NCBI RefSeq assembly: GCF_006148925.1 | Contig: NZ_VAWB01000001.1 | Location: 316,001 to 380,000 of the forward strand | From: Hyunsoonleella aestuarii | GTDB lineage: Bacteria; Bacteroidota; Bacteroidia; Flavobacteriales; Flavobacteriaceae | Reading direction: 5' to 3' | DNA length: 64,000 nucleotides | Notes under the pieces: generated by a model | Told to the model about the DNA's origin: nothing | The model's input: only the letters and a program-made list of their open reading frames with translations | The model's database searches: none | Program-made: the position numbers and the translations under genes | Shown: one piece after another, positions 1,661 to 13,401 of the stretch | How positions within the stretch are numbered: the first letter of the stretch is position 1 | How the letters are laid out: every line of letters begins with the position of its first letter

Positions 1661-3130
1661 ATGACAATTCTTGTAACAGGGGCAACTGGCTATATAGGCA
1701 AACGGCTCATACCGTTCTTATTAAATCAAGGTCACACGGTGGTTTGCGTTGTAAGAGATAGACTTAGAGCAGATAAAAGTTTTTCTGAAGACGAGAACGT
1801 TTATGTTATTGAAGCCGACTTTTTAAAACCAGAAACCCTTGATAATATTCCAAAAAAAATAGACGTAGCGTATTACTTAATACACTCAATGTCTAATTCC
1901 TCAAAGGACTTTGAATCTTTAGAAGAACGATGTGCACTAAATTTCAAACACTATATAGAAACCACTGGGGCCGAACAAGTTATTTATTTGAGTGGTATCA
2001 CAAATGAAGATGAACTTTCTAAACACCTTCGCTCTAGAAAAAACGTAGAAAATCAGTTGTTTTCAGATAAGTATGCATTAACGATTTTCAAAGCAGGGAT
2101 AATTGTTGGTTCTGGAAGTTCTTCGTTTGAAATAATAAGAGATTTAGTTGAAAAACTCCCTTTTATGATTGCTCCAAAATGGTTAAATACTAAAACACAA
2201 CCTTTAGCTGTTAGGGATGTTTTAGCTTTTTTAACTAGAGCCGCAGGAAACACAAAACTTTACAATAAATCTTATGATGTTTTTGGTCCTAAAGTTATAA
2301 CGTATAAAGAAATGCTGCTTCAATTTGCAGAAGTTAGAGGACTAAAGCGATACATTTTGACGGTACCTGTAATGACACCAAAACTATCATCATACTGGTT
2401 ATATTTCGTGACATCAACATCATATAAGCTCGCAACTTCGTTAGTGGATAGCATGGGCGTGCAAATTATTGGACAACCAAGTAATATTAATGACATATTA
2501 GGAGTCAGCCCGATTACTTACAAAGAAGCAGTTGAACTGGCTTTTGAAAAAATTGAGCAAAATAGTATTGTATCTAGTTGGAAAGATTCTATGATAAGCA
2601 GTGGTAGATTAAGAAATCGATTGCATAAATATGTAAATGTTCCAAAGTATGGATGTTATAAAGATTATAAAGAACGTAGGGTTATTGACTCTGGTAAAAC
2701 CATTGAAAAAATCTGGAGCATCGGTGGAATTAACGGTTGGTATTTTGGTACTTTTTTGTGGCGCGTACGTGGTTATATTGACAAACTCTTTGGCGGTATT
2801 GGATTGAGACGAGGTCGCACAAGCCCAACAGAATTAAATGTTGGAGACGCCTTAGACTTTTGGCGTGTGATTTATGCCGATAAGGCAAAACATAAATTAC
2901 TGCTTTACGCAGAAATGCGATTACCAGGAGAGGCTTGGTTAGAATTTAAAATTGAGAATAATAAATTAAAACAAACCGCAACTTTTAGACCTCGTGGACT
3001 ATGGGGTAGACTGTATTGGTATGCGGTACTTCCATTCCACGGATTCATCTTTTCGGGAATGATTAATAAACTTGTTGAAGTTGAGTCACAAAAAGCAACA
3101 TTTACCTCAGAAAACATGTACAAAGTGTAA
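1661..3130 (+). CDS. NAD(P)-binding epimerase-like protein with C-terminal DUF2867
   Basis: A 489-residue two-domain protein. Residues 1 to about 300 are an atypical short-chain dehydrogenase/epimerase Rossmann domain, with GATGYIG at residues 7-13 as the dinucleotide loop and YYLIHSM further on. From about residue 345 to the end it carries a DUF2867 domain, recognisable by [32 protein letters not shown] and the aromatic-rich C-terminal stretch. The substrate is unknown. The same two-domain protein is commonly seen near photolyase genes, which fits this neighbourhood. Its 3' end overlaps the start of the DUF2256 mini-gene by 50 bases, in another frame, so translation is probably coupled. Confidence 0.88.
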
Positions 3131-3221
3131 TCGCCCATTTACTTGGAGAAAAAAATGGGAAAAAAATTGGGAACATGTTAAATATTGCAGTGAACAATGC
3201 AGAAGAAACAAAACACTATAG
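3081..3221 (+). CDS. DUF2256 zinc-ribbon-like mini-protein, TTG start
   Basis: This 46-codon gene has no ATG and overlaps both neighbours in other frames. Translated from TTG at 3081 it begins [11 protein letters not shown], then [19 protein letters not shown], then [15 protein letters not shown] and stop. That is the DUF2256 pattern: an N-terminal basic leader, a CxxC pair, the RPFTWRKKW core and a final CxxxC pair, so it should bind one zinc. The only in-frame starts after the upstream stop at 3060 are TTG codons at 3072, 3075 and 3081; the last gives the usual family N-terminus. It overlaps the DUF2867 gene by 50 bases and the DASH cryptochrome gene by 25. DUF2256 genes are typically found next to cryptochrome/photolyase genes; the function is unknown. 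Confidence 0.88.
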
Positions 3222-4507
3222 GGTTAGTTTGGTTTAGAAACGATTTAAGAGTTCATGATAATTATATTTTGCATGAAGCTTGTAATAACCATAACATCAT
3301 AATTGCCATTTATTTTTTCAATCCTGAACATTATAAACTTGATAAATTTGGTTTTAAAAAAACAGAAAAATATAGAACTCGATTCTTAATAGAAACGATT
3401 CAAGATTTAAAAAGAAACCTCAAATCACTGAACGTTGAATTATTTATATATTTTGATAAACCTGAAAACGTAATAAATCAATTCCTACTAGATTTTGGTA
3501 TAAAACAAATCTATCTTCAAAAAGAATGGACAAGTGAAGAGCAAACAGTTTTAAATAAAGTAAAAGCATCCATTTCAGGAGATTCTGCTTTCAACGAAAT
3601 TTATGACCAGTTTCTCTATAATCCAGAAGACATAAACATAAAGATTGAACAAATTCCACAAGTATTTACGAACTTTAGGGAAAAAGTTGAAAAGTTTAGC
3701 CAAATTAGACCACAAGCTCACCTAAAAGCCCTAAAGAAAATTGAATCGATTTCAAATGATACTAAAATTCCATCTCTGAACGATTTAGGTTTTGAAGATT
3801 TCAAAACCCATCTAAATTCATCGTTCCCATTTAAAGGCGGCGAAAATGCAGCCTTAAATCGTTTGGATGACTATTTCTTTCAATCTAAAAAATTGAGATT
3901 CTATAAGAAAACAAGAAATGGATTGGTTGGTACAGATTTTAGTTCCAAACTTTCACCATGGCTAGCCAATGGCAGCATCTCGGCGCGAACAATTTACTGG
4001 AACGTTAAGAAGTTTGAACAAGAGTATTATAAAAATCAATCTACATATTGGTTAATTTTTGAATTGATTTGGAGAGATTATTTCAAATATATTTCATTAA
4101 ACCATGGAAATGCCATTTTTAAGATTGATGGTATTTTAAAAAAAGATTATACGTGGAAAACTGACCTATCATTAATCGATAATTGGACTAATGGCGAAAC
4201 CCGCTCATCTTTTGTAAATGCTAATATGATTGAGCTGAAAGAAACAGGTTGGATGAGCAATAGAGGTAGGCAAAACGTGGCGTCGTTCTTTGCTAAAGAT
4301 TTGGAATTAGATTGGAGAATTGGCGCTGCGTATTTTGAAGCAATGCTTATAGATTACGACGTTCACAGTAATTATGGAAATTGGATGTACGTTGCTGGTG
4401 TTGGTAATGACCCACGAGACCGAAAGTTCAATGTGGATTTACAAGCTGAGCATTATGATGCAAATGGTAAGTTTCAGAATTTATGGTTGCAACGAACTCT
4501 ATTCTAA
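3197..4507 (+). CDS. DASH-family cryptochrome
   Basis: A 436-residue photolyase/cryptochrome. The N-terminal alpha/beta antenna domain starts with [14 protein letters not shown] (about 9-22). The FAD domain holds the DASH-type [14 protein letters not shown] (214-227), [10 protein letters not shown] (289-298) and [18 protein letters not shown] (357-374), then [22 protein letters not shown] (386-407). The Asn facing the flavin N5 and the first electron-transfer Trp are both kept. DASH proteins bind FAD plus a folate antenna and repair CPD lesions in single-stranded DNA; some also signal. The gene abuts the next photolyase gene (stop 4507, ATG 4508), so both are translated from one message. Confidence 0.95.
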
Positions 4508-6040
4508 ATGAAAACGCTCAGATTAATATTAGGCGATCAACTCAATATAAAACATTCGTGGTTTAAAGAAACTAACATTAATATTACCTATTGTCTTTTT
4601 GAAATGCGCCAAGAGACGGATTACGTAACGCATCATATTCAAAAAGTTATTGGCTTTTTTGCCGCAATGCGCCAATTTTCAGAAGATTTAAAATCTGAAA
4701 GACACAACGTTATCTACTTCAAAATTAATGATAAAAATAATACACATAGTTTAACCGAAAACCTTTCAAAATTAATAGAAGAACATCATATAAAAAATTT
4801 CGAATACATCTTTCCTGATGAATACAGATTGGATGAGCAACTACAAAAATTCTGTAACAAATTAAGCATCAAATCAAATGCAGTATCTGCGGAACATTTT
4901 TATACAAAAAGAGAGGATTTAAAAAACTTCTTTCATGGCAAAAAACAGTATATCATGGAGAACTTTTACAGAGACATGCGTAAGAAGCATAATATTTTGA
5001 TCGTTGCTGACCAACCAGAAGGTGGGAAATGGAACTACGATAAAAGCAACAGAAATAAATGGAAAGGCGACGTTGAAATTCCAAACTATAAGTTATTCAA
5101 AAATGACGTTACTGAAATTGTTAAGAATATTAAATATGCTGAAATCAAAACTATAGGTATATTTGAAACAAAAACATTCTCCTACCCTATTTCTCGAGCT
5201 CAAGCCTTAGAACAACTCAAATACTTTTGCAAGTACTTATTGATTCATTTTGGAGACTATCAAGATGCCATGCATACCGAACAGGAATATCTGTTTCATT
5301 CTAGATTATCCTTCGCTATGAATTTTAAACTGATCTCTCCCAAAGATGTAGTAAAAACGGTAATGAACTATTACCGAAAACACGCTGACGCTATAGATAT
5401 TTCTCAAATTGAAGGTTTTGTACGTCAAATTATTGGTTGGCGAGAGTATATGCGCGGTATGTATTGGGCCTTTATGCCAGAATATAAAAATTTAAACGAA
5501 CTCAACAATACTAATAAGTTGACTGAATTTTTCTGGACAGGTGATACCAAAATGAATTGCTTAAAACATGCCATAACAAATTCTTTAGATAATGGATATG
5601 CACACCATATTCAACGGTTAATGATTACTGGAAATTATGCGCTTTTAACACAAACCAATCCTGATGAAGTTGATGATTGGTATTTGGGCATTTATGTAGA
5701 TGCTATAGAATGGGTACAACTTACCAACACCAGAGGTATGAGTCAGTTTGCCGATGGTGGAAAAATTGCAACTAAACCCTATGTATCTTCAAGTTCATAT
5801 ATTAACAAAATGAGTAACTATTGTGAAGATTGCACATATAACAGAAATAAAAAAATAGGAGAGAATGCATGCCCCTTTAATAGTTTGTACTGGAATTTTT
5901 TAGATGAAAAAAGAGAACAACTAGGGAACAATTTCAGAATGAAAATGATGTATAGCTTATTAGATAAAATGGATAAGCAAGATTTACAAAATATAAAAGA
6001 AAGAGCACAACATATAATTGCGAATCAAGATGAATACTAA
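4508..6040 (+). CDS. Iron-sulfur bacterial cryptochrome/(6-4) photolyase, PhrB-type
   Basis: A 510-residue member of the deoxyribodipyrimidine photolyase-related group that begins LRLILGDQLN rather than with the classical FRxDLR motif. Four cysteines that can ligate a 4Fe-4S cluster are present at about C351 (KMNCLKHA), C439 and C442 (NYCEDC) and C455 (NACPFN), the same spacing as the four cluster ligands of Agrobacterium PhrB. The conserved GYAHHIQRLMITGN stretch (about 363-376) contains the His expected in (6-4) repair. Known members repair (6-4) photoproducts using FAD and a lumazine antenna. Substrate specificity here is inferred from the family. The start immediately follows the DASH gene stop, and the 3' end overlaps the next gene by 11 bases. 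Confidence 0.94.
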   Translation: MKTLRLILGDQLNIKHSWFKETNINITYCLFEMRQETDYVTHHIQKVIGFFAAMRQFSEDLKSERHNVIYFKINDKNNTHSLTENLSKLIEEHHIKNFEYIFPDEYRLDEQLQKFCNKLSIKSNAVSAEHFYTKREDLKNFFHGKKQYIMENFYRDMRKKHNILIVADQPEGGKWNYDKSNRNKWKGDVEIPNYKLFKNDVTEIVKNIKYAEIKTIGIFETKTFSYPISRAQALEQLKYFCKYLLIHFGDYQDAMHTEQEYLFHSRLSFAMNFKLISPKDVVKTVMNYYRKHADAIDISQIEGFVRQIIGWREYMRGMYWAFMPEYKNLNELNNTNKLTEFFWTGDTKMNCLKHAITNSLDNGYAHHIQRLMITGNYALLTQTNPDEVDDWYLGIYVDAIEWVQLTNTRGMSQFADGGKIATKPYVSSSSYINKMSNYCEDCTYNRNKKIGENACPFNSLYWNFLDEKREQLGNNFRMKMMYSLLDKMDKQDLQNIKERAQHIIANQDEY

Positions 6041-7502
6041 GCCCCACATAAACATTGTTTGGCTAAAACGTGATTTACGTTTGCATGATAATGAAGCGAT
6101 TTATAATGCTTTAAAAACTGGAAAAGCTACACTACTACTGTATTGTTTTGAGCCATTATTAATGAATGATTCGCATTATAGCGAACGTCATTGGAATTTT
6201 ATAAGAGAATCTATTATTGATTTAAATACAGCACTAGAAACTTACAATTCTAAAATACTTGCTGTACAATCTGATATTATCGCCGCAATTAACCAATTGC
6301 AATCGCGTTATCATATTTCAGATATCTACTCACATCAAGAAACAGGTATATTAGTAACTTTTGAGCGGGACAAGAATTTTAAAAGATATTGCAAAAACAA
6401 CCTTATTAATTGGCACGAAAATATTAATAATGGCGTACAGCGTGGTTTGAAAAATAGAGATAATTGGAACGAATTGGTAGATGCTTATTATGCTATTGAA
6501 CCCTTAAGTTTTGCTCCAAAAGAAAATCAGCTCATATCGAAAAAGGATATTGAGCTTTTAGAGATAAACTTCAATTTGCCTAATTTAGACACTCAAAAAT
6601 TTACACCATTTCAAAAAGGTGGACGCTCAACAGGTCTTAGATATTTAAAATCGTTTTTTGAGCAACGCTACCAGAATTACATGTTCAATATCTCTAAGCC
6701 AGAGCAAGCAAGAACAAGTTGTAGTAGAATTTCACCATACATAGCCTGGGGAAATTTATCGGTTAGAGAAGTGTATCATGAAGCTTATCATCTAAAAAAA
6801 GCATCGAAACATAAAAAAGCTTTGGAAGCATTTATGTCGCGCTTACGTTGGCAAACCCATTTTATTCAAAAGTTTGAAATGGAACACACCATGGAAGAAG
6901 CTAGTGTAAATAAAGGTTTTCATAAATTAAAAAAAAGTATTTCTTCTAAATATCAAGATGCTTGGAAAACAGGACAAACGGGTTATCCTCTGGTAGACGC
7001 CTGTATGCGATGTTTAAATGAAACTGGATATTTAAATTTTAGAATGAGAGCTTTAGTAGTATCGTTCTTTACACACAATCTTTGGCAACCTTGGCAAGAA
7101 GCAACTACGCATTTATCGCAAATGTTTTTAGATTTTGAACCCGGAATACATTTTCCACAACTACAAATGCAAGCTGGAGAAACTGGCATTAATATGCTTC
7201 GTATTTATAATCCAGTAAAAAATAGCTTAAAATATGATCCAGAGGCTTATTTCATAAAAAAATGGGTGCCGGAGCTTAAAAAACTAGATACACCTTTTGC
7301 ACACCAGCCGTATTTAATGACAGAAATGGAACAACAGCTCTATAATTTTAAGTTAGGCAAAGACTATCCAAAACCGATTGTGAATTTAGAAAGTACTAGA
7401 AAAAAAGCAGGAAACACACTTTGGAAACTGCGCAAGGACAAGACTGTTTTAGAAGAAAGCAAAAGAATTTTAAGAAAACATACTCTTAAAAGTCGTTTTT
7501 AA
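6030..7502 (+). CDS. Atypical photolyase/cryptochrome-fold FAD-binding protein
   Basis: A 490-residue protein starting at ATG 6030, inside the end of the preceding gene; an in-frame TTG at 6018 would add only four residues. The N-terminal antenna domain has VWLKRDLRLHDN. The FAD domain has GGRSTGLRYLKSFF (197-210), TSCSRISPYIAWGNLSVREV, RLRWQTHFIQKFE and TGYPLVDACMRCLNETGYLNFRMR. In the segment that normally reads DYxxASNxGNWQW it instead reads DFEPGIHFPQLQM (368-380), aligning without gaps to the class I gene downstream, then rejoins as RIYNP. The residue normally facing flavin N5 is therefore His, and both Trp of the WQW motif are Leu and Met. The fold and FAD binding are likely; repair activity is uncertain. 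Confidence 0.88.
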   Translation: MNTKPHINIVWLKRDLRLHDNEAIYNALKTGKATLLLYCFEPLLMNDSHYSERHWNFIRESIIDLNTALETYNSKILAVQSDIIAAINQLQSRYHISDIYSHQETGILVTFERDKNFKRYCKNNLINWHENINNGVQRGLKNRDNWNELVDAYYAIEPLSFAPKENQLISKKDIELLEINFNLPNLDTQKFTPFQKGGRSTGLRYLKSFFEQRYQNYMFNISKPEQARTSCSRISPYIAWGNLSVREVYHEAYHLKKASKHKKALEAFMSRLRWQTHFIQKFEMEHTMEEASVNKGFHKLKKSISSKYQDAWKTGQTGYPLVDACMRCLNETGYLNFRMRALVVSFFTHNLWQPWQEATTHLSQMFLDFEPGIHFPQLQMQAGETGINMLRIYNPVKNSLKYDPEAYFIKKWVPELKKLDTPFAHQPYLMTEMEQQLYNFKLGKDYPKPIVNLESTRKKAGNTLWKLRKDKTVLEESKRILRKHTLKSRF

Positions 7503-8331: not shown

Positions 8332-8377
8332 CGTGCTTTGTTTGGTTAATACTAAAACAGCACATAAAAAAGAAGCT

Positions 8378-9073
8378 ATGCAAATAGAAAAATTAGAAAA
8401 GAAAACAAACGGACACAGACTTAATGGATTTTCAATTGAAGATATTGGTGACGATCATCTTTACACGGGTTTAGAGACTCCAATGAAACCAGATGCGTTC
8501 AAATTAAGTGATACTGAAAAAAAGCACCGAATCGCGATCTTGTTCGAAGAAATTATGGACGTTATGGGACTCGATTTAACAGATGATTCACTTCAAGGAA
8601 CGCCGAATCGCGTTGCCAAAATGTACATTGATGAAATTTTCTCTGGATTAAATCCTGCCAACAAACCCAAAGTTGCACTTTTTGATAATAAATACCAATA
8701 CAACCAGATGTTGGTTGAAAAAAATATTACGTTTTATTCAAATTGTGAACATCATTTTGTTCCAATTATAGGTAAAGCCCATGTCGCGTATATTTCTTCT
8801 GGAAAGGTTATTGGCTTATCAAAGCTTAATAGAATTGTACAATACTATGCCAAACGCCCTCAAGTGCAGGAGCGATTAACAAACCAAATAGCTAACGAAT
8901 TAAAATCAATCTTAGACACTGAAGATGTCGCAGTTATAATTGATGCTAAGCATTTATGCGTGTCCTCCAGAGGTATAAAAGACGATACCTCAACGACGGT
9001 TACTGCCTATTATGGTGGAGAGTTTAATAATTCAGAAAAAATCACAGAATTACAAAATTATTTAAAGAGCTAG
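8378..9073 (+). CDS. folE: GTP cyclohydrolase I
   Basis: A 231-residue FolE starting at ATG 8378; an in-frame GTG at 8333 would add 15 residues without family resemblance. It converts GTP to 7,8-dihydroneopterin triphosphate, the first step toward folate and other pterins. Visible signatures are the zinc and active-site stretch SNCEHHFVPI, GLSKLNRIVQYYAKRPQVQERLTNQI, and HLCVSSRGI holding the second zinc Cys. The first 55 residues are a variable extension. Its placement between photolyase-linked genes, rather than in a folate operon, suggests it supplies pterin or folate antenna chromophore to the cryptochromes; this is inference. The gap to the next gene is 4 bases. Confidence 0.95.
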   Translation: MQIEKLEKKTNGHRLNGFSIEDIGDDHLYTGLETPMKPDAFKLSDTEKKHRIAILFEEIMDVMGLDLTDDSLQGTPNRVAKMYIDEIFSGLNPANKPKVALFDNKYQYNQMLVEKNITFYSNCEHHFVPIIGKAHVAYISSGKVIGLSKLNRIVQYYAKRPQVQERLTNQIANELKSILDTEDVAVIIDAKHLCVSSRGIKDDTSTTVTAYYGGEFNNSEKITELQNYLKS

Positions 9074-9077
9074 AAAA

Positions 9078-9302
9078 ATGGAATTAGAGTTAATTAATAA
9101 AGCGTTAGAATTTGAACAAAGAAAAATGAGATCTTTATCTACAAGCGATCGAGTTATGATTTCAAGAGAAGCTAAAACCTTAATCTTAGATCTAAATCAA
9201 ATCTACAAGAAAAAAAAGGATGATAATATTATGGATATCATGAAACGCTTAACAGCTATCAAAAGAAAAGTAGAGAAGCGTTTAAAAGGTCGATTAATAT
9301 AA
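9078..9302 (+). CDS. Small helical protein, paralogue A
   Basis: A 74-residue, highly charged, probably all-helical protein of unknown function. Recognisable blocks are INKALEFEQRK near the N-terminus, SREAKTLILDLNQIYKK in the middle and IMDIMKRLTAIKRKVEKRLKGR at the end. A second copy lies 155 bases downstream and is about two thirds identical by eye (46 of roughly 71 aligned positions). No cysteines, signal peptide or membrane segment are present. It begins 4 bases after folE and so is probably the last gene of that transcription unit. I do not recognise a named family. Confidence 0.78.
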   Translation: MELELINKALEFEQRKMRSLSTSDRVMISREAKTLILDLNQIYKKKKDDNIMDIMKRLTAIKRKVEKRLKGRLI

Positions 9303-9457: not shown

Positions 9458-9673
9458 ATGGAGATTATTGACAAAGCTTTAGAATTCGAACAACGCAAAC
9501 ATACGTTTAAAACAACAAGTGAGCGTATCGAATCATCTAGAGAAGTAAAGAGTTTAATATTAAGCTTAAACGACATCTATAAAGTAGACAAAGATCCTGA
9601 AATTATGGATTTAATGAAACGTTTAACTGTAATTAAACAAAAAATAGAAAAACGGCTGAAGGGCAGGCCATAA
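9458..9673 (+). CDS. Small helical protein, paralogue B
   Basis: A 71-residue homologue of the protein at 9078-9302, sharing the blocks KALEFEQRK, SREVKSLILSLNDIYK and IMDLMKRLTVIKQKIEKRLKGR. The differences are concentrated in residues 14-25, after the EFEQRK block. Like its neighbour it is charged, helical and without recognised domain. Unlike the rest of the island, which is packed with gaps of a few bases, it is separated from its paralogue by a 155-base spacer with its own inverted repeat. It may therefore be independently expressed after a tandem duplication. The SDR gene follows after 21 bases. Confidence 0.78.
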   Translation: MEIIDKALEFEQRKHTFKTTSERIESSREVKSLILSLNDIYKVDKDPEIMDLMKRLTVIKQKIEKRLKGRP

Positions 9674-12096: not shown

Positions 12097-13401
12097 ATGA
12101 AACAACCTATCAATATTTTTTGGTTTCGTAGAGATTTAAGACTTCACGATAACGTTGGTTTTTACGAAGCTTTAAAAGGAGGTCTTCCCGTTTTACCCGT
12201 TTTTATTTTTGATTCTGAAATATTACATAAACTTCCAGAAAATGACGCTCGCGTATCTTTCATTCATAAAACACTTCAAAATATGCGTCATGTTTTACAA
12301 AACGCTCATAACCATAACTTGGCCTTGTATTTTGGAAAACCAATTGACATTTACAATAAACTAATTAATAAGTATGAAATTAAAGAAGTTTACACGAATC
12401 ATGATTATGAACCTTATGCAATAAAACGAGATAAAGAAATTAAGAGCTTATTAAGCCAAAACAACATAGTATTTAATTCTTATAAAGATCAAGTCATTTT
12501 TGAAAAAGATGAGGTTGTTAAATCAGATGGTTCTCCATATGTGGTTTACACACCTTATATGAAAACATGGAAAGAAATTTTTAAAAAGGTCACTCTTAAA
12601 AATTATCCTTCAGAACAATATTTAGATCACCTTATTTCTGAAAATAACTTACCCAATCTAAGTCTATCAGATATTGGTTTTAAACCCTCAAATCAAAGCA
12701 TAGAGCCCTTTAAAATCTCTCCAAGCTTAATTCAAAATTATGAGGCTACAAGGAATTATCCTGCCCAAGACACTACCTCTAAATTAGGCCCTCATTTACG
12801 CTTTGGTACTGTTAGTATTCGAGAAATGATTGAAAAAGCTATTTCCGAAAAGAATGAAATTTTTTGGCAAGAACTCATCTGGCGTGAATTTTTCATGCAA
12901 ATTCTTTGGCACTTCCCCCATACCGTTAACGAAAGTTTTAAATCGAAATACGACCGCATTCAATGGCGTAATAATGAAACCGAATTTAAAGCATGGTGTG
13001 AAGGCAAAACAGGTTACCCATTTGTTGATGCAGGGATGCGCCAGCTAAACGAAACAGGTTTTATGCATAATCGTGTGCGTATGTTAGTGGGTAGTTTTCT
13101 CTGCAAACATTTATTAATTGACTGGCGCTGGGGCGAAGCTTACTTTGCAGAAAAACTGCACGATTACGAAATGGCCAGCAATGTAGGCAATTGGCAATGG
13201 GTTGCTGGTTCGGGTGTAGATGCAGCACCATACTTTAGAATTTTTAATCCTACGACTCAGATTCAAAAGTTCGATAAAAACTTGGAATACATCAAAAATT
13301 GGGTTCCAGATTTTCAAGAACTCACCTATCCGCAGCCTATAGTAGATCATAAATACGCACGCGAACGTTGTTTGTCGGTTTATAAAGAGGCTTTAAATTA
13401 A
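12097..13401 (+). CDS. phr: Class I CPD deoxyribodipyrimidine photolyase
   Basis: A 434-residue classical photolyase that splits cyclobutane pyrimidine dimers using light. The antenna domain begins FWFRRDLRLHDN (8-19). The FAD/DNA domain carries TSKLGPHLRFGTVSIREM (227-244), WQELIWREFFMQILWHFP (257-274), GYPFVDAGMRQLNETGFMHNRVRM (306-329), DWRWGEAYFAEKLHDYEMAS, and NVGNWQW (362-368). The Asn that contacts flavin N5 (about 362) and the nearby Trp residues (366, 368) are intact, unlike in the atypical homologue at 6030. Length is slightly short but complete. It closes the photolyase run; formate-THF ligase follows after 102 bases. Confidence 0.96.
   Translation: MKQPINIFWFRRDLRLHDNVGFYEALKGGLPVLPVFIFDSEILHKLPENDARVSFIHKTLQNMRHVLQNAHNHNLALYFGKPIDIYNKLINKYEIKEVYTNHDYEPYAIKRDKEIKSLLSQNNIVFNSYKDQVIFEKDEVVKSDGSPYVVYTPYMKTWKEIFKKVTLKNYPSEQYLDHLISENNLPNLSLSDIGFKPSNQSIEPFKISPSLIQNYEATRNYPAQDTTSKLGPHLRFGTVSIREMIEKAISEKNEIFWQELIWREFFMQILWHFPHTVNESFKSKYDRIQWRNNETEFKAWCEGKTGYPFVDAGMRQLNETGFMHNRVRMLVGSFLCKHLLIDWRWGEAYFAEKLHDYEMASNVGNWQWVAGSGVDAAPYFRIFNPTTQIQKFDKNLEYIKNWVPDFQELTYPQPIVDHKYARERCLSVYKEALN

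Follow-up and report, generated by a model that had tools for sequence, protein, structure and literature searches.

In the main lineages of photolyases and cryptochromes, the Asn that faces flavin N5 and the triad of Trp residues are standard points of reference, and the locus considered here raises the question of what a conserved member of this superfamily could do without them. The locus lies in a stretch of 64,000 nucleotides of Hyunsoonleella aestuarii DNA, which was analysed as a whole and is called the window. The protein is encoded at 6030..7502 (forward strand, ATG start, 490 amino acids); the TTG start at 6018 in the list of open reading frames is located upstream of the actual ATG at 6030. 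It is a photolyase-family flavoprotein referred to below as H-type, the name used for the EPGIH subfamily. Both of its Pfam domains, the N-terminal DNA_photolyase (PF00875, 69.4 bits) and the C-terminal FAD_binding_7 (PF03441, 213.1 bits), exceed the cut-offs, and together with the predicted fold and the FAD-contact residues they assign the protein to the cryptochrome/photolyase superfamily.

Residues are compared with E. coli Phr, for which the literature number equals the gene number minus 1 (initial Met uncounted). The motif D368-F-E-P-G-I-H-F-P-Q-L-Q-M380 (DFEPGIHFPQLQM, residues 368-380, encoded at 7131..7169, forward strand) is aligned without gaps to DYEMASNVGNWQW of the class I enzyme at 12097-13401. 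The gap-free alignment claimed in the earlier note is thus valid over the motif, but not for the whole proteins, which are 28% identical and have gaps outside it. Two further claims of that note, replacement of the N5-facing Asn by His and of both Trp of WQW, are confirmed in the alignment, where E. coli N378 corresponds to His374, W382 to Leu378 and W384 to Met380. By sequence, the start of the Trp chain is lost, as had been proposed, and the distal triad residue W306 is gone as well (Lys302 in the window protein, at a position unconserved in the clade). An alignment shift as the source of the odd motif was ruled out by D368/E370 and R391/P395, which fix the register on either side of it. Chance or a sequencing error is likewise excluded for His374 at the level of the alignment, because His stands at the N5 position in 119 of the 120 family members and in 39 of the 40 non-redundant ones, across phyla; the exception among the latter is a long-branch Methylobacterium protein with Thr.

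A photolyase fold is predicted for the H-type protein with fair confidence. Two AlphaFold2 runs (40 and 81 rows) gave mean pLDDT values of 78.5 and 78.7, and a Foldseek search with the first model matched photolyases and cryptochromes (TM 0.67-0.82, about 0.78). Residues 370-402 have a pLDDT below 50 in both runs, so that the predicted orientation of His374 towards flavin N5 is based on the alignment.

The non-redundant set, which spans Bacteroidota, Gamma- and Alphaproteobacteria and Deinococcus (Deinococcota), forms a single clade in the tree (support 100/99). After removal of the motif and pocket columns, a single branch (SH-aLRT 98) still separates the His-bearing proteins from the rest, with one change. 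Since the clade remains intact without these columns, the tree indicates that His at N5 arose once. The suggestion that EPGIHFPQ could be a clade marker is upheld in the generalized form EPGIH[FYW]xQ. A high-scoring copy of the gene is present in about 40 of 296 Bacteroidota genomes, counting the genome of the window itself. No relatives of the H-type protein were found among the viral contigs searched; phage matches were distant photolyases only. A Nostoc plasmid (locus L150, 2863-3477) carries a 204-residue fragment comprising only the FAD domain, with the motif INNWQWQM, in which Asn and W382 are kept and W384 is replaced by Met.

Members of the clade are named in public records 'deoxyribodipyrimidine photo-lyase' or 'FAD-binding domain-containing protein'. 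Searches of the open-access literature by motif, by DUF2256/TIGR03643 context and by Ung-photolyase fusion returned no paper describing the clade. It is a widespread and apparently unstudied branch. It might be covered by the 'DASH-like' group that Xu et al. 2021 defined, and it might take in the cyanobacterial Phr1 of PMC9426592.

The flavin site itself is retained. The FAD contacts Y217, S232, S235, R340, D368 and E370 (Y222, S235, S238, R344, D372 and D374 in E. coli, the last Asp being replaced by Glu) are conserved. The middle triad residue W359 is kept as Trp355 (7092..7094, forward strand; 37/40 in the clade), W277 as Trp274 (38/40), and Trp at the W316 position is invariant (40/40). 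The earlier note, which had described the other FAD-domain motifs as retained, is correct for the FAD contacts, W359 and W277; E274, N341 and M345 are lost, like W306. The position of the lesion-contact Glu274 is taken by Arg271, encoded with Trp274 at 6840..6851 (forward strand), and Arg is found there in all 40 members. N341 and M345 are replaced by Phe337 (39/40) and Ala341 (37/40), which lie at 7038..7052 (forward strand) on either side of Arg340 (40/40), the equivalent of the FAD salt-bridge residue R344. Met stands for W384 in 37 of the 40.

The absence of several catalytic residues could be explained by a degenerate photolyase under relaxed selection. The frames are open across phyla and the replacement residues are fixed, which makes this reading most improbable. 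The mean entropy of the five substituted pocket positions is 0.26 bits versus 1.71 bits for the FAD domain and 0.11 bits for the FAD contacts; random quintets were as low in 0.08% of draws (permutation p about 0.0008). The W382 column, with 2.37 bits, is among the less constrained and contains Phe, Val, Leu, Ile, Cys or Met. Pocket entropy close to that of the FAD contacts, together with a free W382 column, indicates at the level of sequence that selection acts on the H-type pocket rather than decay: the Trp was lost and not replaced, His was fixed, and the cavity is strongly selected. The pairs tabulated for the substrate positions in PMC7560933 are M/W for CPD, H/W for (6-4), Q/Y for DASH and V/Y for plant cryptochrome enzymes; the Ala/Met pair of the H-type protein is absent from them.

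The gene is part of a long run opened just upstream by a gene for a TetR-type regulator, followed by those for an ABC1 kinase, a flavin reductase, an SDR, DUF2256, Cry-DASH, the PhrB-type, the H-type and DUF2805 proteins, then by folE and by genes for an SDR, a glutathione peroxidase-like, a TspO-like and an SRPBCC protein and a class I photolyase; part of these names are what we take the products to be from reading the sequences. The features with coordinates all lie on the forward strand. The small cysteine protein DUF2256 (3063..3209, tblastn span; PF10013 is matched by the Salinivibrio homologue) is encoded between the SDR and DASH genes, and its frame overlaps the end of the former and the start of the latter. 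Cry-DASH (3197..4507; TIGR02765, 498.7 bits, cut-off 317) is followed by the PhrB/DPRP-type, i.e., prokaryotic (6-4) photolyase-like, protein (4508..6040; PF04244; Fe-S Cys351, 439, 442 and 455 conserved). Downstream of the H-type gene are the small protein DUF2805/TIGR03643 (8059..8331; kept in 68 of 70 close loci), the GTP cyclohydrolase I-like gene folE (8333..9073; an ORF named from sequence and kept in 65/70), and the fourth family member of the cluster, a class I CPD photolyase-like protein (12097..13401; PF03441/PF00875; best NCBIfam model TIGR03556), which groups with class I. The interval between folE and the SDR gene contains tandem paralogous ORFs (9078-9302 and 9458-9673; 74 and 71 residues), each of which has KRLKGR close to its end. 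Promoter and terminator scans gave results at chance level.

The run is kept in nearly all of the 70 close loci, the TetR gene lying outside most of the stretches compared. In each of the 42 Fe-S-type loci, the last 11 bp of the PhrB-type gene are also the first 11 bp of the H-type gene. Conserved gene order and this exact overlap are further points against degeneration. Other Flavobacteriaceae have a cysteine-less PhrB-type gene (about 33% identical) in the same place, with a variable overlap length; 44 PhrB-type sequences at the locus have the four Fe-S cysteines and 39 do not, an apparent in-place swap between relatives. DUF2256 is a recurring neighbour of H-type genes far outside Flavobacteriaceae as well, including other phyla (Salinivibrio, Tritonibacter and several Bacteroidota).

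This content bears on the substrate. For ordinary CPD and for ordinary (6-4) products, the cluster already contains an enzyme type of its own, which, on sequence grounds, suggests that the H-type substrate is another one. All 39 H-type Bacteroidota genomes encode at least one further PF03441 protein, and the PhrB-type (PF04244) is present in 38 of the 39 versus 12 of 44 other Bacteroidota, in a non-random draw and with phylogeny ignored. As H-type genomes nearly always carry a PhrB-type and another photolyase, the H-type protein is probably a non-redundant function added to the CPD- and (6-4)-type enzymes.

Alternatively, the H-type protein could repair one of the ordinary lesions, CPD or (6-4), with different residues, its substrate perhaps being single-stranded DNA or RNA. 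This reading is consistent with the retained W277 equivalent and with the FeS-type (6-4) enzymes, which are active with a residue other than Asn at N5, SePhrB even with a broken aromatic chain (PMC9178010). It remains doubtful, as the CPD signature (E274, N341, M345, W384), the (6-4) His pair and the DASH Q/Y pair are all missing and the same genomes already contain CPD and (6-4) enzymes.

The strongest clue to work of the H-type protein on DNA damage is provided by seven Deinococcus plasmids, in which it runs on into a family-1 uracil-DNA glycosylase (Ung). The fusion protein of strain QL22 has 759 amino acids; the other six are 57-81% identical to it, and 98-100% of the length is covered in all seven. 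The Ung portion satisfies the curated ung models, its nearest solved enzyme is 2boo, and the two fusions that were read have complete GQDPYHG and HPSPLS motifs. These proteins are annotated merely as uracil-DNA glycosylase. In cytosine-containing CPDs, cytosine deaminates to uracil. The fusion partner gives a DNA context and not a substrate; it fits, without proving, a role on deaminated-cytosine dimers.

Light-driven repair is also the reading to which an even chance can be given on the sequence evidence: the H-type proteins would be a photolyase subfamily in their own right, flavoenzymes that repair DNA by acting on a different substrate, and not degenerate photolyases. A more specific version, put forward tentatively, is a photolyase class not described before, having its own flavin chemistry and its own lesion, e.g., uracil-containing or atypical pyrimidine dimers, and working alongside Ung and (6-4) photolyases. 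In such an enzyme, FADH- could arise with no use of the canonical W382-W359-W306 chain, through an external reductant or via Trp355 or Trp312. Under blue light, an electron would pass from excited FADH- to a lesion bound by Trp274, Arg271, Phe337, Ala341 and Met380. Arg271 could stabilise the reduced lesion in place of Glu274, and His374 at N5 would tune the flavin and might also protonate it. The Ung fusion suggests a cytosine-derived (deaminated, uracil-containing) dimer as the candidate substrate; light would split the dimer, and Ung could then remove the uracil.

The earlier note had proposed altered flavin chemistry with a sensor role or a different substrate among the outcomes. The changed substrate is well supported by the new fixed lesion-facing residues and by the Ung fusion, and a sensor is hinted at by chemoreceptor neighbours. 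Genes for methyl-accepting chemotaxis receptors adjoin the H-type gene or that of a near relative in Duffyella, on an Enterobacter kobei plasmid (where the copy is a fragment among IS elements) and in Methylobacterium (where the member has EPGITW, with Thr at N5, and a bacteriorhodopsin gene is close by). On a Marinobacter adhaerens plasmid, a divergent member (DYMPGIHWPIIQV) is located downstream of genes for a SpoIIE phosphatase, an ATP-binding and a STAS protein, i.e., a partner-switching set. The chemoreceptor-linked members could form a light-taxis branch.

With these neighbours, and given that the lesion residues and the canonical triad are lost, the protein could be taken for a bacterial cryptochrome, one that has lost repair and senses blue light or redox state, signalling via a partner. 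Such neighbours are limited to a few divergent side-branch members, however, and the main clade is found beside repair and antenna/stress genes. The window protein has no signalling domain and no long C-terminal tail, the pocket is almost as fixed as the FAD contacts, which is unexpected for an unused lesion cavity, and the Ung fusion points to DNA damage. A sensor is therefore unlikely, and less likely than a repair role. A repair enzyme for another lesion would represent a third kind of photorepair, and the neighbours and the Ung fusion show where to look for it. In any case, a conserved clade that lacks the Asn, the triad and most residues for CPD and (6-4) binding is a natural experiment on the needs of repair.

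Among the known families, class I CPD photolyases (E. coli Phr; the window enzyme at 12097-13401) share with the H-type protein the two-domain fold, the FAD contacts and the W277 and W359 equivalents. The H-type protein differs in E274, N341, M345, N378, W382, W384 and W306 and forms a separate clade. Assignment to class I was rejected: of the CPD-binding residues E274, W277, N341, M345 and W384, which read R, W, F, A and M, only W277 is kept; NF007955 gives 150.7 bits against a cut-off of 506; and with His374, Leu378, Trp355 and Lys302 there is no N5 Asn and no triad. Asn378 is crucial in the E. coli enzyme according to the title of Xu 2008 as cited in PMC9178010, so that His at this position should alter flavin behaviour measurably.

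Cry-DASH provides the best PDB sequence and fold match (1np7) and the best NCBIfam model (TIGR02765) for the H-type protein, which unlike DASH lacks the N5 Asn, the triad and the Q/Y pair. It is not a Cry-DASH: TIGR02765 scores 157.8 against 317 bits, and it falls outside the DASH clade (support 100/99). Eukaryotic (6-4) photolyases and animal cryptochromes require His at M345 and Trp at W384 according to the table in PMC7560933, where the H-type protein has Ala341 and Met380. Plant cryptochromes require Asp at N5, where His374 is found, and TIGR02766 scores 149.6 against 603.9 bits. The classification of PMC9178010 also has a poorly known 'DASH-like' group near DASH, taken from Xu et al. 2021, of which the H-type clade may be a part.

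The prokaryotic (6-4) photolyases (FeS-BCP: Agrobacterium PhrB, Rhodobacter CryB, SePhrB) resemble the H-type protein in that they can work with an interrupted aromatic chain and with a residue other than Asn at N5 (PMC9178010). FeS-type (6-4) photolyases have Glu or Met near N5, and other FeS-BCP subgroups have Glu; SePhrB has Met and an interrupted chain, yet repairs (6-4) products (PMC9178010), so that loss of the triad need not abolish repair. The H-type protein was not assigned to this group, as it matches PF00875 instead of PF04244; it also lacks the Fe-S cysteines, and a separate gene of that type adjoins its own.

The sister clade of the H-type is haloarchaeal (three plasmid-borne loci) and is annotated as 'FAD-binding domain / cryptochrome-photolyase family'. 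These proteins already have Arg for E274, Phe for N341 and Ala for M345, as well as Gln for G381. Unlike the H-type, they keep Asn at N5 and W382, with Leu or Ser at W384. The new cavity beside the old Asn and Trp suggests, by sequence comparison, that the lesion cavity probably changed before the N5 Asn and W382 were lost. The haloarchaeal sisters would thus represent an intermediate state, usable for stepwise mutagenesis.
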